This document shows, piece by piece, positions 5,318 through 20,716 of a DNA stretch of 64,000 nucleotides; position 1 is the first letter of the stretch, and every line of letters begins with the position of its first letter. Under the pieces are notes generated by a model. It ran no database searches and was not told the DNA's origin. It saw nothing but the letters and a program-made list of their open reading frames with translations. Made by a program: the position numbers and the translations under genes. Source of the DNA: Bradyrhizobium sp. CCGB01 (GTDB lineage: Bacteria; Pseudomonadota; Alphaproteobacteria; Rhizobiales; Xanthobacteraceae); the NCBI RefSeq assembly GCF_024199795.1, contig NZ_JANADK010000001.1, forward strand, positions 8,184,001 through 8,248,000, written 5' to 3'.

Positions 5318-5685
5318 GCGAGGACAACGCAGCCGAGATCGTGCTCGCCCTGGAGATCGACGACCCCGCCCTCGCCGATCGCCTCGCGACGCTGCTCGGC
5401 GGCATCGCCGGGCTTCGCCTCGCCGCACCCGGCGAGGCTGCCACGGCGACGGTCGTGGCCCGAGATCCGCGCAGCATGCCTGAGGACATCGCACTGACGC
5501 AGCGCGAGCTCGACGTGCTGGCGCTGATGGCGGAAGGCGGGTCCAACAAGATGATCGCGCGCCAGCTCGGCATTTCAGTGCACACGGTCAAATTCCACGT
5601 CGGCTCGCTGCTCGACAAGCTGGACGCCACCGGCCGCACCGACGCGGTCGCGCATGCGGCACGCCGCGGCGTGATCGAGCTATGA
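5314..5685 (+). CDS. LuxR-type HTH transcriptional regulator
   Basis: A 123-residue protein starting at a GTG that overlaps the preceding stop codon. The C-terminal half (about 60-120) is a LuxR/FixJ helix-turn-helix: LTQRELDVLALMAEGGSNK, then IARQLGISVHTVKFHV. The N-terminal 55 residues are too short for a complete receiver domain and show no phospho-acceptor pattern, so this is either a truncated response regulator or an adaptor controlled by a partner. The coupling to the HtrA-like pseudoprotease suggests that protein as the partner; this is inference. Confidence 0.85.
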   Translation: MSEDNAAEIVLALEIDDPALADRLATLLGGIAGLRLAAPGEAATATVVARDPRSMPEDIALTQRELDVLALMAEGGSNKMIARQLGISVHTVKFHVGSLLDKLDATGRTDAVAHAARRGVIEL

Positions 5686-5693
5686 CGCAGCTC

Positions 5694-6770
5694 CTAGTGC
5701 GCTGACGTCACCGGAAAGCTGAGCCGGACCGTGAGGCCGGGCGCGTTGTCGTGCAGCGCAATCTCGGCGCCATGGAGGCCCGCAACGGCCGCGACCAGGC
5801 TCAAGCCCAGACCGTTGCCCGGCGTGTAGCGGCTCTGTTCGAGCCGGTAGAAGCGCTTGAACACGTGATCGCGCCGGTCTGCGGGAATGCCCGGACCATC
5901 GTCGGCGATCGCAATCACGGCCCCGCCGCCGGCGCTGCGGCAGGTCACGGTGACCTGCCCGCCTGCGCGGCCGTGCTTGATCGCGTTGTCGACGAGATTG
6001 GCGATGGCGTCAAACAGCAGGTCGCGGTCCCCCGTGATCGCCACCTCGCGGTCGCCGCCAAGGCTGAGGCGGGTCGCCACCTGCTCCGCCGCGGCGTCGT
6101 AGAGCTCGACAACCTCGCCGGCAATTTCAGTGAGGTTCAGCGCGCGAAACGCGCTCCGGCGGGCGCGGGTCTCGATTTCCGAGATCCGCGTGATGGAAGC
6201 GAACATGCCGAGCACGGAATCGAGATCGGCGATGGTGTCGCCGATCAGCACGGCATCGGCCTCACCGCTGCGCTCATGGTGATAGGCCTTTTCCAGCCGG
6301 CCGCGCATGCGCGTCAGCGGCGTGCGCAGATCGTGAGCGACATTGTCGCTGACCTGCTTGACCTCGCCCATCAATGTCTCGATGCGGTCGAGCATCTGGT
6401 TGAGGTTTTCGGCGACGCGGTCCCATTCGTCGTTGCTGCCGCGCAACGGGATGCGCCGGTCGAGGCCGGACAGCATGATGGCGCGGCTGGTGGCGTTGAT
6501 CTCCTCGATCCGCCCGACCGTGCGACGCGTGACCAGCACCGCGGCGAGACCGGCCAGCACGGCCAGCAGCACCGCGACCGCGACCATCGCGAGCTCGATC
6601 ATCGCGGTGAAGCCGCTGTGGTCGCCGGCGTCGCCGACCCGGCCCTGCACATAGGCGATCGTGCCGAAATAGACATAGGCCATGATCGCCGCGACGATCA
6701 GCCCGAACGCCGCGATCGCGATCAGCGCCAGACGGAAGGTCGAGGAGCGGAGAGTCTTAGCCAGGAGCAC
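5694..6770 (-). CDS. Sensor histidine kinase (EnvZ/QseC type)
   Basis: A 358-residue membrane sensor kinase. Transmembrane helices lie around residues 13-37 and 57-80, with only about 20 residues of periplasmic sequence between them, followed by a HAMP linker, a HisKA domain with His146 in NVAHDLRTPL, and an ATPase domain with the N-box LVDNAIKHG and the G-box DDGPGIP. The tiny sensor loop suggests that it senses the membrane, a partner protein or a small ligand. It overlaps its response regulator gene by 14 bases and is co-transcribed downstream of it. Confidence 0.92.
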   Translation of the reverse strand: MLLAKTLRSSTFRLALIAIAAFGLIVAAIMAYVYFGTIAYVQGRVGDAGDHSGFTAMIELAMVAVAVLLAVLAGLAAVLVTRRTVGRIEEINATSRAIMLSGLDRRIPLRGSNDEWDRVAENLNQMLDRIETLMGEVKQVSDNVAHDLRTPLTRMRGRLEKAYHHERSGEADAVLIGDTIADLDSVLGMFASITRISEIETRARRSAFRALNLTEIAGEVVELYDAAAEQVATRLSLGGDREVAITGDRDLLFDAIANLVDNAIKHGRAGGQVTVTCRSAGGGAVIAIADDGPGIPADRRDHVFKRFYRLEQSRYTPGNGLGLSLVAAVAGLHGAEIALHDNAPGLTVRLSFPVTSAH

Positions 6771-7449
6771 GGAGGCAATATCCGATGCCGCGGATGGTGT
6801 GGATCAGCGGGTAGGCCTGGGCATCGTCGACCTTGCGGCGGACCCGCCCGACATAGACGTCGATGATGTTGGTGGAGGGATCGAAATGCAGGTCCCAGAC
6901 ATGCTGGAGCAGCATCGCCCGGGAGACCACGCGGCCCTCGTTGCGGACGAGGTATTCCAGCAACTGGAATTCGCGCGGCAGCAGTGGAATCTTCCGGCCC
7001 CGGCGGCTCGCGCTGCGCGCGATCAGGTCGATGGCGAGATCGCCGACGCGCAGAAGCGTTTCCTTGGCGATGGTCTCGCTACGGCGGCCGAGAGCCTCGA
7101 GCCTTGCCAGCAATTCAGTGAAAGAGAACGGCTTGACGAGATAGTCGTCGCCGCCGGCGCGCAGGCCGCGCACGCGGTCGTCGACCTCGCCGAGCGCCGA
7201 GATGATCAGGAAGGGCGCGGCGATGCCGTCGTCGCGCAATTGCCGCATCATCGTTATGCCGTCGATGTCGGGCAGCATACGGTCGATGGTGATCACGGCA
7301 TAGTCGCGCGCAGCACCATGGCTCAGGGCTTCGCGCCCGTTGGCTGCGAGATCGACCTCGTAACCAGAGGTCGTCAGCTCCTCGACGAGCTGGCCTGCGG
7401 TTTCCGGATCGTCCTCGACGACCAGAATGCGGCGGTGACCTCCGGTCAT
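6757..7449 (-). CDS. OmpR/PhoB-family response regulator
   Basis: A 230-residue two-domain regulator: a receiver (about 8-120; acidic pair in VVEDDP, phospho-acceptor Asp56 in ITIDRMLPD, Lys in VKPFSF) and a winged-helix DNA-binding domain (about 135-228, ending YVGRVRRKV and HTIRGIGYCL). The ATG at 7449 follows GGAG. A large hairpin sits just upstream of the ribosome binding site (7468-7521). It forms a two-gene operon with the overlapping kinase gene. The target genes are not evident; the Gly-rich exported protein upstream on the same strand is one possibility. Confidence 0.93.
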   Translation of the reverse strand: MTGGHRRILVVEDDPETAGQLVEELTTSGYEVDLAANGREALSHGAARDYAVITIDRMLPDIDGITMMRQLRDDGIAAPFLIISALGEVDDRVRGLRAGGDDYLVKPFSFTELLARLEALGRRSETIAKETLLRVGDLAIDLIARSASRRGRKIPLLPREFQLLEYLVRNEGRVVSRAMLLQHVWDLHFDPSTNIIDVYVGRVRRKVDDAQAYPLIHTIRGIGYCLRAPG

Positions 7450-7467
7450 GCAAAACTCCGCGCGACG

Positions 7468-7521
7468 ATCGCCACCAGACTATCCCGTTCCGGGGCTGAG
7501 CGGAACCGCCCGGTGGCGATC
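7468..7521 (-). promoter_or_regulatory. Nested hairpin in the leader of the two-component operon
   Basis: GATCGCCACC (7468-7477) pairs with GGTGGCGATC (7512-7521), and inside it GTTCCG (7487-7492) pairs with CGGAAC (7501-7506). The structure ends 18 bases before the response regulator ATG, next to its GGAG ribosome binding site. It could end transcription from the Gly-rich gene upstream, attenuate, or modulate translation. No U-tract follows on the minus strand, so a simple terminator is less likely. Confidence 0.5.
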
Positions 7522-7549
7522 GCGACAATGGTGCGGTACCGCGATGCGA

Positions 7550-8125
7550 CTACCAATAGTCTCCGCACACATTGACCCATTGCCACCCATAGGCTGTCCA
7601 GCTCCTTTGCCAGCAGCCATCGTCGTAATAATTGGCATAGTTGGCATAGAAGAACGGCGCGCCGACGAAAGCGAACCGGTTGAAGCGGTGACGGTGGAAG
7701 AAGGCATGGCGACCAATGAACGGCCTGCCGTGCCAGCCCGGGCCAGCAAACCGCGGGCCGAAAGCGGCGCGGGTCGCCAATGGTGCACCGACAAAGCGCG
7801 GTCCCATGGCAGCACGGGCGACCATTGGCGAACCGGCGAAGCGTGCTCCACCGAAGCCCGGGGCGCCAGCAAAGCGCGCGCCACCCATCCCGCCGACATG
7901 CATGCCGCCGAAACCACCCGCGCGCATACCGCCGAAGCCGCCCGCATGCATTCCGCCACCGCCGAAATGCCCGCCACCGCCAAAGCCACCGTGGCCGCCA
8001 CCGCCGAAGCCGCCACCGCCATGCCCTCCGCCACCGCCGCCGCCACGGGCAAGCACAGGTGAAGCGAGCGCCATCATCGCGGCGAGCGTCACCGCAGTGA
8101 CGCCTTTGAGAAGCTTGTTGTCCAT
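7550..8125 (-). CDS. Exported Gly/Ala/His-rich low-complexity protein
   Basis: A 191-residue protein with a Sec signal peptide (LLKGVTAVTLAAMMALASPV ending near ALA) followed by GGGG/GGH runs (about 27-60), repeated GGM/GGARF and Ala-Pro-Arg-Phe units to about 130, and an aromatic C-terminus rich in Tyr and Trp with two Cys (GCWQRSW and VNVCGDYW). GGAGGA precedes the ATG. Proteins of this build are common in Bradyrhizobium and uncharacterised; a cell-surface role is plausible. There is no enzymatic motif. Confidence 0.75.
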   Translation of the reverse strand: MDNKLLKGVTAVTLAAMMALASPVLARGGGGGGGHGGGGFGGGGHGGFGGGGHFGGGGMHAGGFGGMRAGGFGGMHVGGMGGARFAGAPGFGGARFAGSPMVARAAMGPRFVGAPLATRAAFGPRFAGPGWHGRPFIGRHAFFHRHRFNRFAFVGAPFFYANYANYYDDGCWQRSWTAYGWQWVNVCGDYW

Positions 8126-8250
8126 CGAAGCATCCTCCGTGCTGCGCGGCGATCTTTCTGCCGCGCGAGGAGGATCAGATGAGAGGAAGGGACGGGCACC
8201 TTCAACTTACAAACGCGCCAGATTCTGACGCGGATGTCAGGGAGGCCCCG

Positions 8251-8288
8251 CTCTCTCACTCCCTCGCCCCGCTCTTGCGGGGAGAGGT
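8251..8288. repeat. GC-rich palindromic repeat, copy 1
   Basis: CTCTCTCACTCCCTCGCCCC, a short loop, then GCGGGGAGAGGT. A near-identical copy lies at 47856-47895 and a longer inverted pair with the same core at 58264-58408, all between genes. It is a dispersed REP-like element in this window. Confidence 0.7.
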
Positions 8289-8296
8289 TTAAAAAG

Positions 8297-10636
8297 TCAC
8301 GCCCGCTTGCCGTTGTTCTTTTCGGCCGCGCGACGCATGGCTTCGGCGAGGGCACCGCCACCGCCGGAGGACTCCTGCTTGCGCGGCGCCGAGGAGGTCA
8401 TGCGGGCGGGGTTGCGCGAGCTGTTGTCGCGCTGCATGCCGGGCGCGTCCTTCTTGGCACCGACCTCGTCGTCGAGACGCAGGGTCAGCGAGATGCGCTT
8501 GCGGGCGACCTCGAAGTCCAGCACCTTCACCTTGACGATGTCGCCGGGCTTCACCACCTCGCGCGGATCCTTGATGTAGGTCTTGGACATCGCCGAGATG
8601 TGAACCAGGCCGTCCTGGTGCACGCCGATATCGACGAAGGCGCCGAAGGCGGCAACGTTGGTCACGGTGCCCTCGAGGATCATGCCCTTCTGGAGATGCT
8701 TGATCTCCTCGACGCCCTCCTTGAACACAGCGGCCTTGAACGCCGGGCGCGGATCGCGGCCGGGTTTTTCGAGCTCGCGCAAGATGTCGGTGACGGTCGG
8801 CAGGCCGAAGGTCTCGTCGACGAAATCCTTCGGCTTCAATGTGCGGACGATCTCGCTGCTGCCGATCAGCGCCTTGATATCGCTCTTGGTGGCGCTGAGA
8901 ATGCGGCGCACCACCGGATAGGCTTCCGGATGCACGCCGGACGCATCGAGCGGGTCCTCGCCGCCGAGGATGCGCAGGAACCCGGCGCACTGCTCGAACG
9001 CCTTCGGCCCGAGCCGCGGCACCTCCTTCAGCGCCTTGCGCGACTTGAACGGGCCGTTGGCGTCGCGGTGTGCCACGATGCTCTGGGCAAGGCCCGAGCC
9101 GACTCCCGACACGCGCGCAAGCAGCGGCGCCGAGGCGGTGTTGACGTCGACGCCGACCGCGTTCACGCAGTCTTCGACCACGGCATCGAGCGATTTGGCG
9201 AGCTTGGCCTGGCCGAGGTCGTGCTGGTACTGGCCGACGCCGATCGCCTTGGGCTCGATCTTGACGAGCTCGGCAAGCGGATCCTGGAGGCGACGCGCGA
9301 TCGAGACCGCACCACGCAGGGTGACGTCGAGGCCCGGCAACTCCTCCGAGGCAAAAGCCGAGGCCGAATAGACCGACGCGCCGGCTTCCGATACCACGAT
9401 CTTGGTCATCTTCAGCTCGGCCAGACCCTTGACGAGATCGCCTGCGAGCTTGTCGGTTTCGCGCGAGGCGGTGCCGTTGCCGATCGCGATCAGCTCGACG
9501 CGATGCTTCAGCGCGAGCTTGCCGAGGATCGCAAGCGACTCGTTCCACTGCCGCTGCGGCTCGTGCGGATAGATCACGGCGGTATCGACCACCTTGCCGG
9601 TCGCGTCGGTGACGGCGACCTTGACGCCGGTGCGGTAGCCGGGGTCGAGGCCCATGGTGACGCGGGTGCCGGCGGGCGCCGCGAGCAGCAGGTCGCGCAG
9701 ATTGGAGGCGAACACGCGCACGGCCTCGGTCTCGGCCGCGTTCCACAGCCGCATGCGCAGGTCGATGTTGAGATGCACCTGGATCTTGGTACGCCAGGCC
9801 CAGCGCACGGTATCGATCAGCCAGCGGTCGCCGGCGCGCTTGAGGTCGGCGATACCGAACCGCTTCATGATCTTCAGTTCATAGGCGCTCGGCACGCCCG
9901 GCGGCGGCGCTTCGGCTTCGGCCTGGATCTGGAGATCGAGGACCTCTTCCTTCTCGCCGCGGAACATCGCGAGGATGCGGTGCGACGGGAGCTTGGTCAG
10001 CGGCTCGGAGAACTCGAAATAGTCGGCGAATTTTTCGCCCTCGGTCTTCTTGCCGTCGCGCACCTTGGAGGCCATGCGCGCATTGGTCCACATCTCCTCG
10101 CGAAGCGCGCCGATCAGATCGGCGTCCTCGTCGAAGCGTTCGACCAGGATGGCGCGGGCGCCGTCGAGCGCGGCAGCGGCATCCGCGACGCCCTTCTCGG
10201 CATTGATGTAACCTTCGGCCACGACCTTCGGATCGTTGCCGGACTCCGCCATGAGTTGATTGGCGAGCGGCTCGAGGCCGGCCTCCTTGGCGATCTCGGC
10301 CTTGGTGCGGCGCTTCGGCTTGAACGGCAGGTAGATGTCTTCGAGGCGCGCCTTGCTGTCGGCGGCGAGAATGGAGGCTTCCAGTGCGGCATCGAGCTTG
10401 CCCTGCTCGCGGACCGATTCGAGGATGGCCTTGCGGCGGTCTTCGAGCTCGCGCAGGTAACCCAGGCGCTCCTCCAGGGTGCGCAATTGCGCGTCGTCGA
10501 GCGCACCGGTCGCTTCCTTGCGGTAGCGCGCGATGAAGGGAACCGTGGCGCCGCCGTCGAGCAGCGTCACCGTCGCCTCGACCTGCTCCGCTCGTACCCC
10601 AAGCTCCTGCGCAATTTTCTGGTTGATATTTGCCAC
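8297..10636 (-). CDS. tex: Tex family RNA-binding transcription accessory protein
   Basis: A 779-residue Tex homologue. The order is the N-terminal helical Tex region ([13 protein letters not shown]), a YqgF-like RNase H fold ([16 protein letters not shown]), helix-hairpin-helix motifs ([15 protein letters not shown]) and a C-terminal S1 domain ([20 protein letters not shown]), then a Lys/Arg-rich tail. Length is typical. The start is taken as the GTG at 10636 ([13 protein letters not shown]), with AGAGGG upstream; an in-frame ATG 14 codons earlier would add residues unlike the family. Tex binds RNA and affects transcription and stress tolerance. It appears monocistronic. Confidence 0.95.
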
Positions 10637-10882
10637 GCGAGAATCCCTCTTCCAAGCACGCGACGCGGGGCGAACCACCGACCGCGGGACGCCGCTTATG
10701 GACCAACCGAGGTTGATTCATCAAGGTGCGGCGCGCAACCGTCGACAGAGGATTTTTTTGTTGAACCGATGCGATCTCGCCACAATCTTGGGGATGTCGG
10801 CGCATCGCCAGTGGCTTGACAGAAGCGGCTGTTCCACGGCTGGTTGACCCGCCGGACCACCGAACTCCATATGAGGACTACC

Positions 10883-11992
10883 ATGCGCACAGCATCGGTC
10901 GGCGTCGTCAAGGTCGCCACCACCGGCCCCGGCGACGTCTCCGGCCTCATGGCTATGATCGGCTCCGGCGCGATCGACCCGACAACGATTTTGGCCATCC
11001 TCGGCAAGACCGAAGGCAATGGCGGCGTCAACGATTTTACCCGGGAGTATGCCGTCGCGGCGCTGTGTGCGGCGCTGGCACCGCAGCTCAGCCTGTCACC
11101 AGAGGCGGTCGAGCAGCGCATCGCCTTCGTCATGTCGGGCGGCACCGAAGGCGTGCTCAGCCCGCACATCACGATTTTCACGCGCGAGGAGGTCGAGGCG
11201 CGGCCGGCAGGCATGTCGGGCAAGCGCCTGAGCATCGGCATGGCGCACACGCGGGATTTTCTCCCCGAGCAGCTCGGGCGCACGGCACAGATCGCGGAGA
11301 CCGCCGAGGCGGTGAAAGCCGCGATGGAGGATGCCGGCATCACCGATCCCACTGATGTCCATTTCGTGCAGATCAAATGCCCGCTGCTCACCAGCGACCG
11401 CGTCGCCGCGGCCAACGCACGCGGCAACAAGACTGTCACGACCAGCGCCTACAGCTCGATGGCCTATTCGCGCGGAGCTTCCGCGCTCGGCGTTGCGGTC
11501 GCGCTCGGCGAGATCACTACCGATCTTCGCGACCAGGACGTGCTGCACCGCTACGATCTGTTCTCGAAGGTCGCCTCGACCTCGTCCGGCATCGAGCTGA
11601 TGCACAACGTCGTCATCGTACTTGGCAACTCGGCGTCGTCAGCGAGCGGGTTCGAGATCGGGCACGCCGTGATGAACGACGCCATCGATGCACCGGCGGT
11701 GTTATCTGCGTTGGACAGTGTCGGACTTGGCGTCGCGCCGCACGCGACCGCAGGCCGCGAGCTCGTCAACATCTTCGCCAAGGCCGAGGCTTCGCCTGAT
11801 GGCAGCGTGCGCGGCTTCCGCCACACCATGCTGGAAGACACCGACATCAGCTCGACGCGTCATGCCCGCGCCGCCGTCGGCGGCCTGATCGCGGGCCTTG
11901 CCGGCACCGGCGCGGTCTATGTCTCCGGCGGCGCCGAGCATCAGGGCCCGGCCGGCGGCGGGCCGGTTGCGGTCATCGCGCGGCTGTCTTAA
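10883..11992 (+). CDS. Ring-opening amidohydrolase of the cyanuric acid hydrolase/barbiturase family
   Basis: A 369-residue member of the AtzD/barbiturase family, which hydrolyses a ring amide of cyanuric acid or barbiturate with Ser-Lys pairs. Family landmarks are Lys42 in ILGKTEGNGG, Ser85 in VMSGGTEG, Lys165 in VQIKCPLL, the STSSG region near 235, Lys300 in IFAKAEAS, and the C-terminal metal-site motif AEHQGPAGGGP (351-361). Length matches the family. The ATG at 10883 has GAGG 8 bases upstream; two earlier in-frame ATGs have no such site. An amidase-signature gene follows 112 bases later, as expected for a pathway that next cuts the ring-opened amide. Barbiturate versus cyanurate cannot be decided by eye. 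Confidence 0.92.
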   Translation: MRTASVGVVKVATTGPGDVSGLMAMIGSGAIDPTTILAILGKTEGNGGVNDFTREYAVAALCAALAPQLSLSPEAVEQRIAFVMSGGTEGVLSPHITIFTREEVEARPAGMSGKRLSIGMAHTRDFLPEQLGRTAQIAETAEAVKAAMEDAGITDPTDVHFVQIKCPLLTSDRVAAANARGNKTVTTSAYSSMAYSRGASALGVAVALGEITTDLRDQDVLHRYDLFSKVASTSSGIELMHNVVIVLGNSASSASGFEIGHAVMNDAIDAPAVLSALDSVGLGVAPHATAGRELVNIFAKAEASPDGSVRGFRHTMLEDTDISSTRHARAAVGGLIAGLAGTGAVYVSGGAEHQGPAGGGPVAVIARLS

Positions 11993-12104
11993 TGACGCGG
12001 CGACCTCTCCGCCCGGCGCAACCCTGCCCTTCGCGCCGGCTCAGTTGATTCACGCGGGCCCTTGCGAAAAAGGTGACGCCGCACCTTTTGGGGATTTGGA
12101 TTTC

Positions 12105-13574
12105 ATGACGTTGCCGATGAGCTGGAATGAATGGGCGCAGCACGACGGCGTTGGCCTCGCGGCGCGCGTGCGCAAGGGTGAGCTGACAGCGAAGGAACTG
12201 GCGCGCCAGGCCGCCGCCGGCGTTGCCAAGGTCAATCCGGCACTGTCGGGTGTGGTCGAGCTGTTCGAGGACGTGATCGCCGACCCGGCCGGGGACGGCG
12301 CCAATCTCGCCGGCCCGTTCGCCGGCCTGCCCTTCCTGATGAAGGACCTCGGGCCGACCATGAAGGGCCGTCTCCAGGAAATGGGCTCGTTGCTGATGCG
12401 CGGCAATCGCGCGAGCGCCGACACCTTCCTGACCGGTAAATTCCGTCAGGCTGGCCTCAACCTGATCGGCCGCACCACGACGCCGGAATTCGGCGTGTGC
12501 AGCTCGGCCGACAACCCCGCCGTCTACGTCACGCGCAATCCCTGGAATACCGACTACACCACCTGCGGCTCGTCGGCGGGCAGCGCCGCGATGGTCGCGG
12601 CCGGCGTGGTGCCGATCGCACATGCGACCGACGGCGGCGGCTCGATCCGCATTCCCGCCGGCGTCAACGGCAATATCGGCCTGAAGGTCTCGCGCGGCGT
12701 GTTCTCGCTCGCCCCGCACATGTCCGATCTCACCGGCCTCGTCTCGATCCAGGGCTGCCAGTCGCGCTCGGTGCGCGACACCGCGGCCTTCGTCGATCAT
12801 GCCCGCGGGCCGGCACCCGGCGAGTTCATGCCGTTCTGGACCACGGCGCAGCCCTATTCCGAGATGATCAAGCGCGATCCGTCAAAGCTGCGCATCGCGC
12901 TCTCGCACACCTGGGGCGACTACACCGCGACGCCCGAGATCGCGGCCGAGCTGGAGAAGGCGGGCCGTTTCCTCGAAGGCCTCGGCCATCACGTCGACTA
13001 CGCGCTGCCCGAGCTCGACTTCCGCGCCGCGTTCGAGGCGCAGACGACCTGCTACATCAGCAATTTTGCGGTGGTGATCTCCAACATGCTCGCGGCGCGC
13101 GGGCTGGACAAGCCGCCGGAAGATCTCATCGAGCCCATGAACATCCGCATCTGGGAAGCCGGCCGGCACACGAGCTTCGCCGAGCGCGCGAAGATGCAGG
13201 GCGTGTTCAACACGACCTCGCGTGGCTTCGGTGCCTTCTTCGAGCAGTGGGACATGATCCTGACGCCGATCACGGCGCTGCCGACGCCGAAGGTCGGCAC
13301 CAAAGAATATCTCACCATCTCCGACAATCCGGATGTGCTCGACTGGTTCGGCAATCTCTGGCGCTTCTTCGCCTTCACGCCGCTCGCCAATCTCTGCGGC
13401 ATGCCGGCGATCTCGATGCCGATGGCGACCCAGGAGCACGGCCTGCCGCTCGGCATCCAGGCGATCGCCAAGCAGGCCAATGACGGCCTCTTGCTGCAGC
13501 TCGCCGCCCAGATCGAGCGCGCCATCGACGGCAAGTGGAACGGCGGCAAGAAGCCGAAGGTGCATGTCGGCTAG
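12105..13574 (+). CDS. Amidase signature family enzyme
   Basis: A 489-residue amidase-signature enzyme. The Ser-cisSer-Lys triad is visible: Lys80 in FLMKDLG, cis-Ser156 in TCGSSAGSAA, and nucleophile Ser180 in DGGGSIRIPA. The ATG at 12105 (MTLPMSWNEW) follows a GGGGATTTGGA stretch; a second ATG four codons on is also possible. The gene follows the cyanurate/barbiturate ring hydrolase on the same strand. Amidase-signature enzymes act downstream of such ring openers (AtzE and AtzF in cyanurate breakdown), so a paired role is reasonable. The length fits a single-domain amidase without the C-terminal domain of allophanate hydrolase. Confidence 0.9.
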   Translation: MTLPMSWNEWAQHDGVGLAARVRKGELTAKELARQAAAGVAKVNPALSGVVELFEDVIADPAGDGANLAGPFAGLPFLMKDLGPTMKGRLQEMGSLLMRGNRASADTFLTGKFRQAGLNLIGRTTTPEFGVCSSADNPAVYVTRNPWNTDYTTCGSSAGSAAMVAAGVVPIAHATDGGGSIRIPAGVNGNIGLKVSRGVFSLAPHMSDLTGLVSIQGCQSRSVRDTAAFVDHARGPAPGEFMPFWTTAQPYSEMIKRDPSKLRIALSHTWGDYTATPEIAAELEKAGRFLEGLGHHVDYALPELDFRAAFEAQTTCYISNFAVVISNMLAARGLDKPPEDLIEPMNIRIWEAGRHTSFAERAKMQGVFNTTSRGFGAFFEQWDMILTPITALPTPKVGTKEYLTISDNPDVLDWFGNLWRFFAFTPLANLCGMPAISMPMATQEHGLPLGIQAIAKQANDGLLLQLAAQIERAIDGKWNGGKKPKVHVG

Positions 13575-15185: not shown

Positions 15186-15551
15186 TTGCGGCATCCGCTC
15201 GACATCATCGCCATGTTCGCCGCGCTCTGGCTGCTGGCATCGATGGTGCTCGACGCACTGACGCCGAAGGAGCTGACTGCGGTGATGATCGGCATCGCGA
15301 TCGGGCCCGCCATCGTCATCACCGCCGTGTTCTACTATCTGCGCTGCCCGCGCACCGATTTCGCCGTGATGTTCGCGGCGCTCTGGCTGATCTCCGACAT
15401 CGCCATTGCGTTCATCTCGCCGACGCAGCTGCCGCATTTCCTGATCGCGCTCGGCTTCGTGCCCGCCCTGCTGATCGGCATCGTGCTGCACTGGCAACGC
15501 TTCCAGCACCGCCACGAGCGGCTGCCCGCGCCATCGGTGAAGCGCGGCTAG
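15186..15551 (+). CDS. Small four-helix membrane protein with internal duplication
   Basis: A 121-residue protein, TTG start at 15186 preceded by GAGAGG. Four hydrophobic helices lie at about 5-25, 30-52, 59-78 and 83-103. The two halves are repeats: MFAALWLLASMVLDALTPKE in the first matches MFAALWLISDIAIAFISPTQ in the second. The function is unknown. Its stop codon abuts the stop of the convergent SCO-like gene (GGCTAGCTAGCG). Confidence 0.72.
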   Translation: MRHPLDIIAMFAALWLLASMVLDALTPKELTAVMIGIAIGPAIVITAVFYYLRCPRTDFAVMFAALWLISDIAIAFISPTQLPHFLIALGFVPALLIGIVLHWQRFQHRHERLPAPSVKRG

Positions 15552-16712
15552 CTAGCGCAAGGCGCGATCATTCAACGTTTCGACCGCGCAGCTCACAATT
15601 TGCTCCTCGTCCCACTGGAGGCGCTCGAAAGCAACCGCGATCCGTCCCGCGGCATCAAGGATGTAGAGCTCTATGCGGTGACGGTTTACCAGCGACTCAC
15701 CGAAATTGACGCCGAGCTCAAAATACTCCCGCAACGCATCATTGCCTTTGATGGCCCGTAGCATCCGGTGATCTTCATCCATACGTACAGCACGGTCCTT
15801 GCCGTAGACGCGTAACCGCTCGGCCCGATCGAACTCCGGATCGTACGTGATTGCGGCCGTGTGGATGCGCCTGGCGAGACCTTGCGCATCGAGCAATGCC
15901 TGGACGCGTGCAAGTTTTGTGACGTTGAGCGAGCACTTCAATGGATTATCACACCGTGTATAGAAGAAGACCACGATGGATGGGCAGCCGCTGAAGAATT
16001 CGACGAACTTCAGCAATTTCCCATCTTGATCCTGCATAATGATGGCGTCGATCGATTTGGACTCAAAGCGAGCAATCGACGTTCGGATCGAGGTATTTCT
16101 GCCTTCCGGCAAGCCACCGCAGCATGATCGAACGCCGTCGGCGGGCCCATGGATGACCTGCAGAGCCCGATCGAGATCGATTCGCCGCTTTCGTGACAGC
16201 CCGGGCTCAGCGCGCCAGCGCTCGAGCTGCGGCAGAACTGCCCGCGCGTTCGGACCGAGCCAGGCCAGAGTTGCCAGCAATTCGGATACCGCGCTCGTCC
16301 CGGTGGATGAGGTGGCGTACTCGCCGTAGCTCTCGAACGACATCGGCTCGTCATGGTATCGAATCTGGTTGAGGGCACGCACGACGAACGGCGCAAAACT
16401 TTCATTCGGTTGCGCATAGGAACGCAATGCCCGGGCGGCCGCGGCAACCAAGTAAGCATCGATACCCGTGTCGAGCTCTTCAAGCACGAAGATCAGCGCA
16501 TGATCGGAGAGTCCGGAGCGCGCCAGCGCGAGCAAGATCCAACCTCGCATGCGTACGACGGTCGCCGTCCCTCGCCCGCCGTAGACGGGATGTTCTTCGC
16601 GCAGCAAATCAATGAGTTTCGCGCTGCGGAGCGGATCGGCGGCAAGCGCGTTGACTAGACCGGCGAACTCGTCTTCCGACATCGCGCGCGTTGCGTTGCC
16701 GGAGAACGCCAT
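15552..16712 (-). CDS. HEAT-like/SCO1-SenC fusion protein
   Basis: A 386-residue protein. Residues 1-190 are helical, Ala/Leu-rich and HEAT-like. Residues 220-386 match the SCO1/SenC thioredoxin-like copper chaperone fold: DQDGKLLKF, SIVVFFYTRC, TYDPEFDRAERLRVYG, then NRHRIELYILDAAGRI. Copper-ligand positions are retained as Cys254, Cys260 and His345, but the usual CxxxC is widened to Cx5C. An extra CC pair sits at 197-198. There is no signal peptide or membrane anchor, unlike normal SCO proteins. One base separates it from the HEAT-repeat gene, and the tyrosinase gene is first in the unit. A role in loading copper into the tyrosinase is inferred. Base composition is lower in GC than the flanks. 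Confidence 0.78.
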   Translation of the reverse strand: MAFSGNATRAMSEDEFAGLVNALAADPLRSAKLIDLLREEHPVYGGRGTATVVRMRGWILLALARSGLSDHALIFVLEELDTGIDAYLVAAAARALRSYAQPNESFAPFVVRALNQIRYHDEPMSFESYGEYATSSTGTSAVSELLATLAWLGPNARAVLPQLERWRAEPGLSRKRRIDLDRALQVIHGPADGVRSCCGGLPEGRNTSIRTSIARFESKSIDAIIMQDQDGKLLKFVEFFSGCPSIVVFFYTRCDNPLKCSLNVTKLARVQALLDAQGLARRIHTAAITYDPEFDRAERLRVYGKDRAVRMDEDHRMLRAIKGNDALREYFELGVNFGESLVNRHRIELYILDAAGRIAVAFERLQWDEEQIVSCAVETLNDRALR

Positions 16713-16713
16713 T

Positions 16714-17529
16714 TTACTGACCGTACTTGCTGAGGAAGCGACGCGCAGTCTGCTTGTATTTCGCTGGCGTCTTGGATGAATTGAAGCGATTGACGCTCTG
16801 CATCAGGGCCTTGTCCTTGCCGAGCGCAGCGTCGTCGCCGAATTGTTCCAGCGCGGCCAAGCTGGTGGCCTTGATATCCGCATAATCTGATTTGTCCTTC
16901 AGGATCTTGAGCGCCTGCTGTTGCAGCTTTTCCGGGTTCAGCGAATGCAATGCAGAGGCTGCGAGCTGCCGGTTCTCGCGCAACTCTTTCTTGTCGCGGA
17001 GCACCTTCTCGAACAGCGGCGCCGACTTCGCGTCGGCTGCGAGCAGACGTAACGCCTCACGCCTCGCCTCTTGGTTCGGTGGCTTCTTCACGATTGCCCG
17101 TGCGACCGAGTAGGCTTCCGTGTGCACATCATTGCCGAGAAGCTGAAGCGCCTTCTCGGGCGGGAGCAGCGCCTTGGCGGGATCCTTCAGACCGTTCAGA
17201 AGCTTCTTCTGCGCAAAGCCATCCTTGTTGCGCGTGAGAATGCCAAGCGCGCGCCGCCGCAGCTGCTCATGAGAATCCGTCGAGACTTCCCGCAGGGCAG
17301 CAATGTAGTCTGCATTAACCGATTCGAAGTTGGCAACACTGAACGCCGCCGCGCCGAGCGATTGCAGCGCGGCCATCCGCACCTCGATGGGCTTGCTGGT
17401 GTCGCACAGAACTTTCAGTCGGCGCTGAACATCGTCGGTGTTTTCCGCCACTTGAACTAGGGCCGGGGCACCAGCTATCTTCTTTCGGGTTGAGACCTTC
17501 CTTGCAACTTTCCGTTTCGTTGCCATCAT
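16714..17529 (-). CDS. HEAT-repeat protein with basic N-terminus
   Basis: A 271-residue all-helical protein. After a basic start (MMATKRKVARKVSTRKK), at least five two-helix units of HEAT/Armadillo type follow, for example VRMAALQSLGAAAFS, LRRRALGILTRNKDG, ARREALRLLAADAKS and LQQQALKILKDKSDY. Such repeats serve as protein-binding scaffolds. It sits between the tyrosinase gene (24-base gap) and the HEAT/SCO gene (1-base gap), so one transcript is likely. No catalytic motif or export signal is visible. A scaffold joining tyrosinase and the SCO-like protein is a guess. Confidence 0.8.
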   Translation of the reverse strand: MMATKRKVARKVSTRKKIAGAPALVQVAENTDDVQRRLKVLCDTSKPIEVRMAALQSLGAAAFSVANFESVNADYIAALREVSTDSHEQLRRRALGILTRNKDGFAQKKLLNGLKDPAKALLPPEKALQLLGNDVHTEAYSVARAIVKKPPNQEARREALRLLAADAKSAPLFEKVLRDKKELRENRQLAASALHSLNPEKLQQQALKILKDKSDYADIKATSLAALEQFGDDAALGKDKALMQSVNRFNSSKTPAKYKQTARRFLSKYGQ

Positions 17530-17553
17530 CTCGTCTCCTCGCGCAAGAGCGCG

Positions 17554-18783
17554 CTAGACCTGTACATCATCATAGTTGAATCCCATGTTGGACGCCGCAT
17601 TAACGACGCCGTGGTAATCGATACAGTCTCGAACACGCGGTTGCAGGCCCGGCGCCGCGATGTAGGGCGATGTTGCCAAGGGTCCGCCCGGTGCCGTCGA
17701 TGGACGGGTGGGGTCGGTGGCATTGGTGATGCCGTTCCAGGGCCACATGGTGTCGTTCAGTCTGTGGCCCGGCCGACTGGTCGGTCTATCATCGAATGAT
17801 GATGCGACTCCTGGGTCGAAGCGGCCGTTCTGACGTTGCCATTTTGCCCACAACCGATCGACGTTGCAGTGAAGCAGGAAAAACAGCGGGTCTTTTGCCG
17901 CGGTCGGTGGGTCGTGGATGGAACCGCCAAAGCTGATATGCGCGAGCCCGTGCGGGTCACCTTCCATGCTCCGGAACACGCGAAACTGATTGCCGAGTGC
18001 CAGCGTCTGCGCCTCATTCATAAGATTGGGCGGAGCCTGCGAGGTGGGAAAGTCCGGTCTGCGTTTGACCCCTGGCGTGTTGTCCGTTTGCCAGAATTCC
18101 AGCGGGTTGCCGTTGCGGAATTTCACGGTGCCATTCGCGTCGGACTCCCCGAGGAAGTCGCGTGTGAAAATGTTCGGAGCGGGTTGGTCGAAGCGCCAGT
18201 AGGGCAGTGGCACGCTCGGATCAATTGCTTGAAGCTCGCGCTCAAGGTCGAGCAGATAGGCGCGATGCCAGGGCAAGAAGCCAGGCGCGGCGTGCGCCTG
18301 GAAATAGCCGGGCTCCTTGTGCATGTTGTTGAAATCTGCGAATCGCCCGAGCCCCTGATTATTGAGCTTGGCGAACGCCGCGATGAACCGGTCGCGCTCA
18401 CCATTGGTGAGATTGTTGGCGTTCTTGCGGATGCGCACCATCAGCGCGACAGTTCCGACCAGCGTGTTTCCCACGCGAGCCTCGATCTTGACGTCGCCGT
18501 TATGGATACTCGGCCGGCCGAACTTCCCGGCCGTGAAGAACGAAACCGTCGCGCCGCTTGTCGGGACGGTCAGCGTGAGAGTGCTCGCGAACGCTCCGGT
18601 TGTGCCGCTGCGGAACCTGACCGCGCCGCCATTTGCCGCCGATACACCGGCGATCCTTACGCTGACGGTTGGCGCATTGGTGCCGATGGGATTGGTCACA
18701 CGAATCCGGCACGGAGACGGTGACCATGTAACGAACCGTGCCTCTGGAGCGATGCTGTTATTAATCTGCAGTTCGACGTCCAT
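17554..18783 (-). CDS. Tyrosinase-family dicopper oxidase with N-terminal beta domain
   Basis: A 409-residue type 3 copper protein. The ATG at 18783 (MDVELQINNS) has GGGAGGG upstream. Residues 1-120 form a beta-rich Ig-like region. The catalytic core (about 125-395) has CuA ligands His155, His164 and His173 (MHKEP, QAHAAPGFLPWHR) and CuB ligands His278, His282 and His305 (DPHGLAHISF, DPLFFLLHCNVDRLW). Tyrosinases oxidise phenols to o-quinones. No signal peptide is seen, so it is cytosolic or exported through a partner. It heads an operon with a HEAT-repeat protein and a HEAT/SCO fusion, both unusual companions. Lower GC than neighbouring genes hints at horizontal acquisition. Confidence 0.92.
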   Translation of the reverse strand: MDVELQINNSIAPEARFVTWSPSPCRIRVTNPIGTNAPTVSVRIAGVSAANGGAVRFRSGTTGAFASTLTLTVPTSGATVSFFTAGKFGRPSIHNGDVKIEARVGNTLVGTVALMVRIRKNANNLTNGERDRFIAAFAKLNNQGLGRFADFNNMHKEPGYFQAHAAPGFLPWHRAYLLDLERELQAIDPSVPLPYWRFDQPAPNIFTRDFLGESDANGTVKFRNGNPLEFWQTDNTPGVKRRPDFPTSQAPPNLMNEAQTLALGNQFRVFRSMEGDPHGLAHISFGGSIHDPPTAAKDPLFFLLHCNVDRLWAKWQRQNGRFDPGVASSFDDRPTSRPGHRLNDTMWPWNGITNATDPTRPSTAPGGPLATSPYIAAPGLQPRVRDCIDYHGVVNAASNMGFNYDDVQV

Positions 18784-18979
18784 GATTATGCCCTCCCGAA
18801 GTCTGGACGGCCTAAACGGCATTCTCCGCGAGTAACGAATAAAACTACAACCCTGTTGTGCGAATAGCAAGGCGATCAGTCGTCGCAGGTCAGCTCTTGG
18901 CCCAAGGCCGAGAGGCTGCGTCCGCTTCACCGTCAACTTCCGAAAGCAAAAGGGACGCGACGAAGTATGAGTGCACGCC

Positions 18980-20716
18980 CTAGCGCGGCAGCAGGTTCGT
19001 CTTCGCGAGGTCGAGCACCTCGTCGCCGCGGCCGTTCATCACTGCACGCAAGACCCAGAGGCTGAAACCCTTGATCTGCTCGGGCGTGATGGTCGGCGGC
19101 ATCGACAGCTCCTGCTTGGCGGTGACGACGTCGAGCAGCGCCGGCCCGTTGTGCGCGAGCATCTCCTTCATGGCGCCCGGGAGCTCGCCGGGATCTTCGA
19201 CGCGCCTGGCAAAGATGCCCATCGCGCGCGCCATCGCCGCGAAGTCCGGGTTCTCCAGATCGACATTGGTATCGACGAAGCCCGCAGCTTTCATCTCCAG
19301 CGCGACGAAGCCGAGCACGCCATTGTTGAAGACCACCACCTTTACCGGCAGCTTCATCTGCGTCAGCGTGATCAGGTCGCCCATCAGCATGGTGAAGCCG
19401 CCGTCACCCGACAGCGAGATCACCTGACGACCGGGCTGCGAGGCCTGCGCGCCGATCGCCTGCGGCATGGCGTTGGCCATCGAGCCGTGCACGAAGGAGC
19501 CGATCAGCCGGCGACGGCCGTTCATGTCGAGATAGCGCGCGGCCCACACCGTCGGCGTGCCGACATCGGCGGTGAACACGGCATCGTCAGAGGCATGATC
19601 GCTGATGACCTTTGCCAGATATTGCGGATGGATCGGCTTAGCTCCCGGCGTGCCCTTCGCCAGCGAGTCCAGCCCTTCGCGCGCCTTCTTGTAGTGCGCG
19701 ATGGCATCGTCGAGATGCTTGCGCTGCGTCTTGGACTTGAGCAGCGGCAGCAGCGCCTCGATGGTGAGCCCGACGTCGCCGACGAGGCCGAGATCGATCC
19801 TGCACCGCCGTCCCAGATTCTCCGGGCGGATGTCGATCTGCGCGATCTGGCAATCGCTGGGGAAGAATTGCTTGTAGGGAAAATCAGTGCCGAGCATCAC
19901 GAGCGCGTCGCAGGCGTGCATGGCGGCGTAGCCCGAGGAGAAGCCGATGAAGCCGGTCATGCCGACGTCGTAGGGATTATCGTATTCGACATGCTCCTTG
20001 CCGCCGAGCGCATGCACGATCGGGCTCTTCAAGGTCTCCGCAAGCTGCATCAGCGGCGCGTGCGCGCCGGCACAACCGCGACCGCAGAACAGGGTGATGC
20101 GCTCGGCGCCGTTGAGGAGATCCGATAGCGCCTTCAGTTCATCGGCCTGCGGCACGACTTTTGGCGCCGCCAGCGCGAGCCCGCGCGTCGTCGACAGCGC
20201 GCGCTTGGGCGCGGCGCGGAAGGCGACGTCTCCGGGCATCGCGACGACCGCAACACCGCGCATTCCGACGGCTGCACGGATCGCGTTCTCCAGCACGAAA
20301 GGAAGCTGGCTCGCATCCGAGATCAGTTCGCAATAATGGCTGCATTCGCGGAAAAGGTCTTGCGGATGGGTTTCCTGGAAATAGCCGCCGCCGATCTCCG
20401 CCGAGGGGATCTGCGCCGCGATCGCCAGCACGGGGACGCGGCTGCGATGCGCGTCGAACAGGCCGTTGATCAGGTGCAGATTGCCCGGACCGCAGGAGCC
20501 CGCGCAGACCGCGAGGCTTCCCGTCATCTCGGCGTCGCCGGCAGCGGCGAACGCCGCGACCTCCTCGTGCCGGACATGAATCCATTCGATCGTGCCACGG
20601 CGGCGCAGCGCCTCGGTGATCGCGTTCAGGCTGTCGCCGACGATGCCATAGATGCGCTTGACGCCGGCCTGCTCGAGCGTTGCCACGAACAGATCGGCCA
20701 CGTTGTTGATCGCCAT
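18980..20716 (-). CDS. poxB: Thiamine-diphosphate-dependent pyruvate oxidase/dehydrogenase (PoxB-like)
   Basis: A 578-residue ThDP enzyme of the PoxB/acetolactate synthase superfamily. The N-terminal domain has the activating Glu in [11 protein letters not shown] and the GDSLN motif typical of PoxB; the middle domain is FAD-binding; the C-terminal ThDP-binding GDG motif is [14 protein letters not shown], ending at VVFNN. PoxB oxidatively decarboxylates pyruvate to acetate at the membrane, passing electrons to quinone. Length matches E. coli PoxB. It is monocistronic, with an 81-base gap to the dgo genes. A glyoxylate carboligase or other decarboxylase activity is less likely. Confidence 0.88.

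Follow-up and report, generated by a model that had tools for sequence, protein, structure and literature searches.

In the 9.3-megabase single-contig genome of Bradyrhizobium sp. CCGB01, three adjacent minus-strand genes encode a tyrosinase, a HEAT-repeat protein and a protein that joins an all-helical domain to a domain resembling SCO copper chaperones. We studied these genes within a window of 64,000 nucleotides, the stretch from base 8184001 to base 8248000 of that genome. The trio is a real, conserved gene set, exclusive within the genus. It is also a discrete cassette, richer in adenine and thymine than its surroundings, that moves horizontally among soil bacteria. On balance we lean slightly towards reading it as a self-contained mobile module, in which a cytosolic tyrosinase would have its own dedicated copper supply.

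Distribution of the gene set

A tyrosinase with its N-terminal domain, the HEAT-repeat protein and the full-length SCO fusion are each found in 11 of 265 Bradyrhizobium genomes. These are the same 11 genomes, and the genes lie side by side. The initial annotation of this DNA had staked its reading on the trio recurring elsewhere, and so it does, in these genomes, on plasmids and in another family. The counts refer to complete proteins: the SCO search matched 16 of the 265 genomes at an expect value (E) of 0.001 or below, but five of these (G053, G080, G093, G168 and G169, at loci L022-L026) have an SCO domain alone, with the motif CxxxC, and were not counted, nor were 61 of the 72 genomes matched by the tyrosinase search, which have the catalytic domain only. 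These genome searches scored 6 to 8 candidates per genome, and weak relatives may be missed.

Among 72,556 plasmid records, the tyrosinase occurs with a coverage of at least 80% in six. The fusion is present in these six as well, covered to at least 80% in five of them and to 77% in the other. A seventh record, from Microvirga, has only the SCO domain, surrounded by cytochrome-oxidase assembly genes. We opened four of the six, from Paraburkholderia caribensis, Rhizobium gallicum, Rhizobium sp. CIAT894 and Bradyrhizobium barranii, and in all four a third gene lies between the other two. This gene matches the HEAT protein, by tblastn in three plasmids and through its annotation and Pfam in R. 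gallicum.

Further afield the set is rare. Among 385 sampled genomes of the class, the only confirmed trio besides that of the window belongs to another alphaproteobacterial family (genome G265, L039/L068) and has the same gene order at L068. In that sample 32 genomes were matched; the cysteine motif, read in 29 loci, had the spacing C-x5-C in three (L039, L053 and L054). A tyrosinase profile applied to 398 genomes of the phylum added one full-length tyrosinase, in G301, which looks exported and is without such partners. The small number of trio genomes in the class and phylum samples indicates that the trio is patchy.

Homologues are nevertheless numerous in sequence collections, with at least 1534 for the SCO fusion, at least 1361 for the HEAT protein and at least 2831 for the tyrosinase at E of 0.001 or below. 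We examined the best 120 of each, referred to below as the listed homologues; the weak end of the full sets may include other SCO, HEAT and tyrosinase proteins. Names among the SCO matches listed include Acidobacteriota, Chthoniobacteraceae and Xanthobacteraceae. Contigs of equal size above 10 kilobases (kb) recur across the homologue lists, eight for each pair of genes (tyrosinase and SCO, tyrosinase and HEAT, SCO and HEAT) and four for all three, which suggests that the trio stands together in these collections too. A single-protein scan of genome contigs returned one locus.

Mobility and shared divergence

Across 12 loci, compared over a few kb per side (mostly 4 to 9, with L031 left out as a repeat of L005), no gene set other than the trio is shared by all. 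Next in frequency come the genes around the window's trio, present at five loci with the window counted, and the other loci have about five different surroundings. Empty sites complete the picture: in 12 of 18 relatives the two genes that flank the trio in the window adjoin without it, some within a few bases. These 18 are the loci of other genomes with at least 75% identity, out of 24 matches, and 6 of the 18 have no poxB within the 1.5 kb examined.

The guanine-cytosine (GC) content of the trio is 0.597, against 0.656 in the rest of the window, and at third codon positions it is 0.69-0.72, against 0.85 and 0.92 in its two neighbours. The leader ahead of the tyrosinase resembles that of L029, a locus whose surroundings differ: 82 of 107 aligned positions agree in the last 110 bases before the gene, but only 32 of 89 further upstream, so a promoter probably moves with the trio. 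A search for consensus sigma-70 promoter sites gave none, and a search for repeats pairing both cassette ends, as traces of movement, found none.

The three proteins diverge in parallel (Mantel r 0.97-0.98 over 14 loci; L009, the duplicate L031, and L034 for an in-frame TAG in its tyrosinase were left out). The ratio of nonsynonymous to synonymous substitution rates (dN/dS) is 0.10-0.24 for all three genes in nine comparisons with three relatives. Because all three are thus under purifying selection, the trio is not a product of chance. At L034 (genome G161) the tyrosinase carries a single in-frame TAG and the HEAT and SCO genes are open, reflecting recent decay or a sequencing error.

The tyrosinase and the HEAT-repeat protein

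The coordinates, strand and intergenic gaps given in the initial annotation are all correct: 24 bases separate the tyrosinase and HEAT genes and 1 base the HEAT and fusion genes (Table 1). Its statement that the tyrosinase has all six copper histidines is likewise borne out, as these are invariant in 13 of 13 aligned tyrosinases, the window copy counted, and in the 120 closest of the 2831 homologues. With a Pfam Tyrosinase (PF00264) score of 118.2 bits and its six-histidine CuA and CuB motifs, the protein classifies as a type 3 copper tyrosinase, predicted to contain copper and to oxidise phenols. A feature absent from that annotation is a beta-sandwich domain made up of roughly the first 115 residues, seen in an AlphaFold2 model and present in 13 of 13 aligned sequences, which perhaps shields the active site or helps its loading. 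The model has a mean predicted local distance difference test score (pLDDT) of 63.4 overall and is weak in the catalytic part. Two more tyrosinase-domain genes lie elsewhere in the same genome (C1:5386908 and C1:2559478); they belong to another subfamily, and only the catalytic part matches.

The second gene had been called a HEAT-repeat protein, and its HEAT_2 (PF13646) match of 31 bits exceeds the cut-off of 27.7. Its N-terminal tail is rich in lysine and arginine. An export signal had been judged absent from all three proteins, and a hydropathy scan, the one method applied here, agrees, showing no N-terminal hydrophobic stretch in any; the highest values over 19 residues are 1.11, 1.18 and 1.63, of which 1.63 belongs to the fusion and falls within its helical domain, at residue 59.

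The SCO-like fusion protein

The earlier description of the third protein as a fusion of HEAT-like and SCO1-like halves holds for the SCO-like half. Its C-terminal part scores 35.7 bits against SCO1-SenC (PF02630; cut-off 22.8), and P0088, a relative with 65% identity to it over the whole fusion (alignment A6), was modelled with AlphaFold2 (mean pLDDT 75.8). The model shows an all-helical domain and a thioredoxin-fold domain, both predicted with confidence, joined by a linker of low confidence. Ten of the top 12 solved structures nearest to the thioredoxin-fold domain are SCO proteins, and the C-terminal domain is accordingly predicted to have the SCO fold. The other half is not HEAT by sequence. 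In the window protein Pfam gives no match for it even at E values as high as 1, and a profile comparison with the HEAT family was negative. A weak HEAT match (E 0.14) appears in one of six long relatives scanned, and the all-helical model of P0088 makes a HEAT-like fold possible.

The fusion departs from SCO1/SenC copper chaperones in two respects: it lacks their CxxxC motif, and by hydropathy it has no N-terminal hydrophobic segment that could serve as a membrane anchor. In place of CxxxC, all 120 closest of the 1534 homologues have C-x5-C and none has CxxxC. C254 and C260 are both invariant in the divergent set (15 of 15), and these two cysteines and the distal His345 align with those of solved SCO proteins. 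Asp291, like His345, is kept in all 120 listed homologues. The other SCO protein of the same genome has CPDVC (in FGYTHCPDVCP) and an N-terminal hydrophobic segment.

Some relatives carry an extra hydrophobic C-terminal domain with CPxC, which the window protein lacks. This long form, of about 530 residues, accounts for 15 of the 120 listed homologues and for the Paraburkholderia copy (L006); the 15 have KCPxCW in the hydrophobic domain, and L006 has KCPIC. In those with four membrane segments, positive charges assign the N-terminal part to the cytosol. The hydrophobic domain is poorly modelled by AlphaFold2 and has no significant Pfam match. We rejected a relation to MerC, for which Pfam scores were at chance level (E 0.65 to 6.2, in 3 of 6 long proteins scanned).

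A possible copper-loading route

That the cassette travels together suggests, without proving it, that the HEAT and SCO-like proteins help to put copper into the tyrosinase inside the cell. In such a scheme the SCO-like domain would bind copper through C254, C260 and H345 and pass it to the dinuclear site that six histidines form in the apo-tyrosinase. Copper would be taken up in the cytosol or, where relatives have the membrane domain, on the inner side of the membrane, and the cysteines of the linker may act as a relay site. The HEAT protein, aided by the helical domain of the fusion, would dock the tyrosinase and the SCO-like domain, or keep the apo-enzyme open, and the likely benefit would be phenol oxidation inside the cell. 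SCO proteins also have a thiol-reducing role toward CuA. As no cysteine is kept in the tyrosinase across the divergent sets, that role would not be needed at its site, which leaves the metal. The copper-loading interpretation had been offered in the initial annotation; the conserved gene set, the predicted SCO fold and the cysteine and histidine ligands speak for it, and the non-canonical spacing of the cysteines calls for caution.

Several observations weigh against a dedicated copper supply. C-x5-C differs from the canonical copper motif, and its function could lie in thiol chemistry instead. Canonical SCO proteins act in the periplasm, and to our knowledge there is no clear precedent for a cytosolic one. 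The closest tyrosinases keep two cysteines (C25 in 120 and C306 in 118 of the best 120 of 2831), for which reason a thiol role toward this close group is possible. The long relatives are not uniform: of the six considered, three show four membrane segments by hydropathy, two show three and one shows two. A scaffolding role for the HEAT protein is suggested by its fold class alone. Parallel divergence is expected from joint transfer alone and by itself is no proof of contact. Lastly, the related exported tyrosinase at L108 has neither an SCO nor a HEAT gene within the 16 kb examined, and the Bacillus megaterium enzyme is active without caddie or extension, according to an excerpt of PMC9454253; together these indicate that the tyrosinase fold needs no helper.

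The L108 locus (5496-9130) encodes another tyrosinase of this subfamily, which by eye seems to carry a signal peptide. A 323-residue protein is encoded after it and one of 397 residues before it, and both look exported as well. We considered whether it is a two-gene version with a HEAT partner and rejected this, since the 323-residue neighbour is unrelated to the HEAT family (hhalign probability 0.7%). L108 is a different, periplasmic set and has no SCO gene.

A more specific proposal is that the cassette represents a new loading route for a type 3 copper enzyme, in which a cytosolic C-x5-C variant of SCO, in some lineages with a CPxC copper-importing membrane domain, would deliver through a HEAT adaptor to a cytosolic tyrosinase, all within one mobile cassette. 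We put this forward tentatively and consider it doubtful. If true, the known role of SCO proteins would be widened: they would be general, re-targetable copper inserters, and C-x5-C would be the signature of the ones dedicated to enzymes besides cytochrome oxidase, namely the tyrosinase of the trio and, at other loci, methanethiol oxidase.

Alternative explanations

Instead of carrying copper, the SCO-like domain could handle thiol-disulfide chemistry or peroxide. A cytosolic tyrosinase could generate quinones and peroxide, against which C254/C260 and the cysteines of the linker would shield the cell or the enzyme itself. The unusual cysteine spacing leaves room for this; against it, His345 and Asp291 are kept in all listed homologues, the fold matches are mostly SCO proteins, the window protein has no match to the peroxiredoxin families AhpC-TSA or redoxin in Pfam up to E 1, and C-x5-C also occurs in SCO genes that adjoin a copper enzyme (L053 and L054). 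We regard this explanation as unlikely, if worth keeping in mind. Alternatively, the HEAT protein or the fusion might be the substrate of the tyrosinase, with a tyrosine in it oxidised and the SCO-like part maturing the modified protein. Strict three-gene co-occurrence fits such a scheme, as do three invariant tyrosines of the fusion (Y251, Y290 and Y303; 15 of 15 in the divergent set), and there is precedent in the oxidation of caddie Tyr98 by a Streptomyces tyrosinase, reported in a part of PMC6312201. However, the HEAT alignment A4 (17 sequences) has no invariant tyrosine, and Y251 is likely structural because it lies within the conserved FFYTRC stretch of the fold core. On this evidence a substrate role appears improbable.

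Two further explanations concern the cassette as a whole. The trio might serve mobile elements in defence or competition, for example by producing quinones upon attack, and its relation to copper would then be secondary. It is patchy and mobile, and the plasmid regions contain helicases, a methyltransferase, transposases and DUF2235 genes; against this, PADLOC models of known anti-phage defence systems matched none of six proteins searched, and the neighbours around the window's trio are metabolic genes. We think it a little less probable still than a substrate role. An ordinary tyrosinase with two functionally unrelated neighbours is the least credible of all, and we give it almost no weight: the co-occurrence of the three genes already contradicts it, and the several locations and the empty sites also stand against it.

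Coordinates and flanking genes

Table 1. Positions of the cassette, its domains and motifs, and its flanks, numbered from the first base of the window unless a locus is named.
Feature	Position	Strand	Basis
Whole cassette (tyrosinase, HEAT, SCO-like fusion)	15552..18783	-	gene set common to all 12 loci compared
Tyrosinase gene, 409 residues	17554..18783	-	ATG at 18783, GGGAGGG before the ATG
N-terminal beta-sandwich domain of tyrosinase, ~residues 1-115	18439..18783	-	model strands 2-121; no Pfam match
CuA histidines 155, 164, 173	18265..18321	-	invariant 13/13 aligned, 120/120 listed
CuB histidines 278, 282, 305 (EGDPHGLAH ... LLHCNVDR)	17869..17952	-	invariant 13/13 aligned, 120/120 listed
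HEAT-repeat protein gene, 271 residues	16714..17529	-	PF13646 over cut-off
Fusion gene, 386 residues: all-helical domain and SCO-like thioredoxin-fold domain	15552..16712	-	PF02630; P0088 model
Linker Cys-Cys (C197, C198)	16119..16124	-	C197 120/120, C198 119/120 listed homologues; C197 15/15 divergent set
C-x5-C motif TRCDNPLKC (C254, C260), replacing canonical CxxxC	15933..15953	-	120/120 listed homologues
His345, counterpart of SCO1 third copper ligand	15678..15680	-	120/120 listed, 15/15 divergent
Cassette leader, probably with promoter	18784..18894	-	similarity to L029 leader
Ubiquinone-dependent pyruvate dehydrogenase (poxB type), flank outside unit	18980..20716	-	NF006591 1021.3 bits
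121-residue hydrophobic protein, flank outside unit	15186..15551	+	adjoins poxB homologue in relatives without trio
Long fusion relatives with hydrophobic domain (L006; P0039, P0062, P0084, P0088, others)	L006 10193-11773		up to four segments

The poxB-type gene lies upstream of the trio on the same strand, 196 bases off, and the plus-strand gene downstream abuts the stop of the fusion directly with its last base. The latter contains an internal tandem duplication (repeats 79% identical in DNA, 156 and 186 bases apart), and its product is present in 25 of 60 genomes searched, its own counted, all 25 of the same genus. Elsewhere in the window (10844-13574), an AtzD/TrzD-type ring-opening amidohydrolase gene adjoins an amidase gene, perhaps a pair for s-triazine or barbiturate degradation. 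On two Rhizobium plasmids (L007 and L008) the trio has large helicase genes of the DEAD/DEAH (ResIII) type as neighbours and DUF2235 genes close by, in differing arrangements. On the P. caribensis plasmid (L006, 1-2145), a LodA/GoxA-type oxidase and a flavin adenine dinucleotide (FAD)-dependent oxidoreductase are encoded a few genes from it.

Comparison with known systems

We found no description of a tyrosinase, HEAT and SCO gene set in the open-access literature, with wider searches covered in part, in keeping with the initial annotation, which knew of none. A compact mobile soil cassette that pairs a tyrosinase with an altered SCO protein makes the question of copper acquisition testable with three genes. 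Most known bacterial copper enzymes reside in the periplasm or membrane, according to part of PMC3817396, and tyrosinases without a thioether bridge must get their coppers by other mechanisms, a matter left open in the portion of the review PMC11608171 that deals with them.

The best-known helper is that of Streptomyces MelC1/MelC2, a small caddie for an enzyme secreted through the twin-arginine translocation (Tat) pathway, as described in an excerpt of PMC3817396; in the trio the HEAT and fusion proteins would be the helpers instead, and none of the sequences shows a visible export signal. The MelC1 caddie has no Pfam match up to E 1 among the trio and two flanking genes; a whole-genome search with MelC1 gave no match either, but neither did its control queries, so this second search does not show the caddie to be absent. 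The intracellular Streptomyces MelD and the helper-free B. megaterium tyrosinases resemble the trio enzyme, and in the excerpt of PMC9454253 that describes them no SCO or HEAT partner is mentioned. ScoI/SenC proteins (Bradyrhizobium ScoI, PDB 4wbj) share with the fusion the thioredoxin fold, the two cysteines with a distal histidine and an SCO1-SenC match over the cut-off, but canonical members are membrane-anchored, periplasmic and of CxxxC type, and the genome of the window retains such a copy.

Among known systems in which an SCO protein serves a single copper enzyme besides cytochrome oxidase, the nearest is the mtoX-SCO1/senC-mauG operon of methanethiol oxidase in Hyphomicrobium and Ruegeria, described in part of PMC5739008. 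There too an SCO gene is tied to a single copper enzyme. At L053 and L054 a C-x5-C SCO gene (LFYAQCADPLGC / LFYAQCADPAGC) adjoins a gene of SBP56, the methanethiol oxidase family, followed at L053 by a MauG-type gene; the two loci come from two genomes of one genus, with SBP56 91% identical. The C-x5-C spacing may therefore be a mark of SCO proteins for enzymes other than cytochrome oxidase, although two loci are few. The systems differ in that the mtoX enzyme is SBP56, seen at L053/L054 only and not beside the trio SCO gene, where the enzyme is of PF00264, and in that the mtoX operon has MauG as third gene and no HEAT protein. The mtoX-system proteins are also predicted to be periplasmic in Methylophaga, in the section of PMC6548844 concerned, unlike those of the trio. 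Copper enzymes with a dedicated, co-encoded copper helper are an already known kind of system, of which the trio is a putative new variant. As a putative dedicated copper-loading set, our best reading is that it is analogous to both mtoX-SCO-mauG and MelC1/MelC2.

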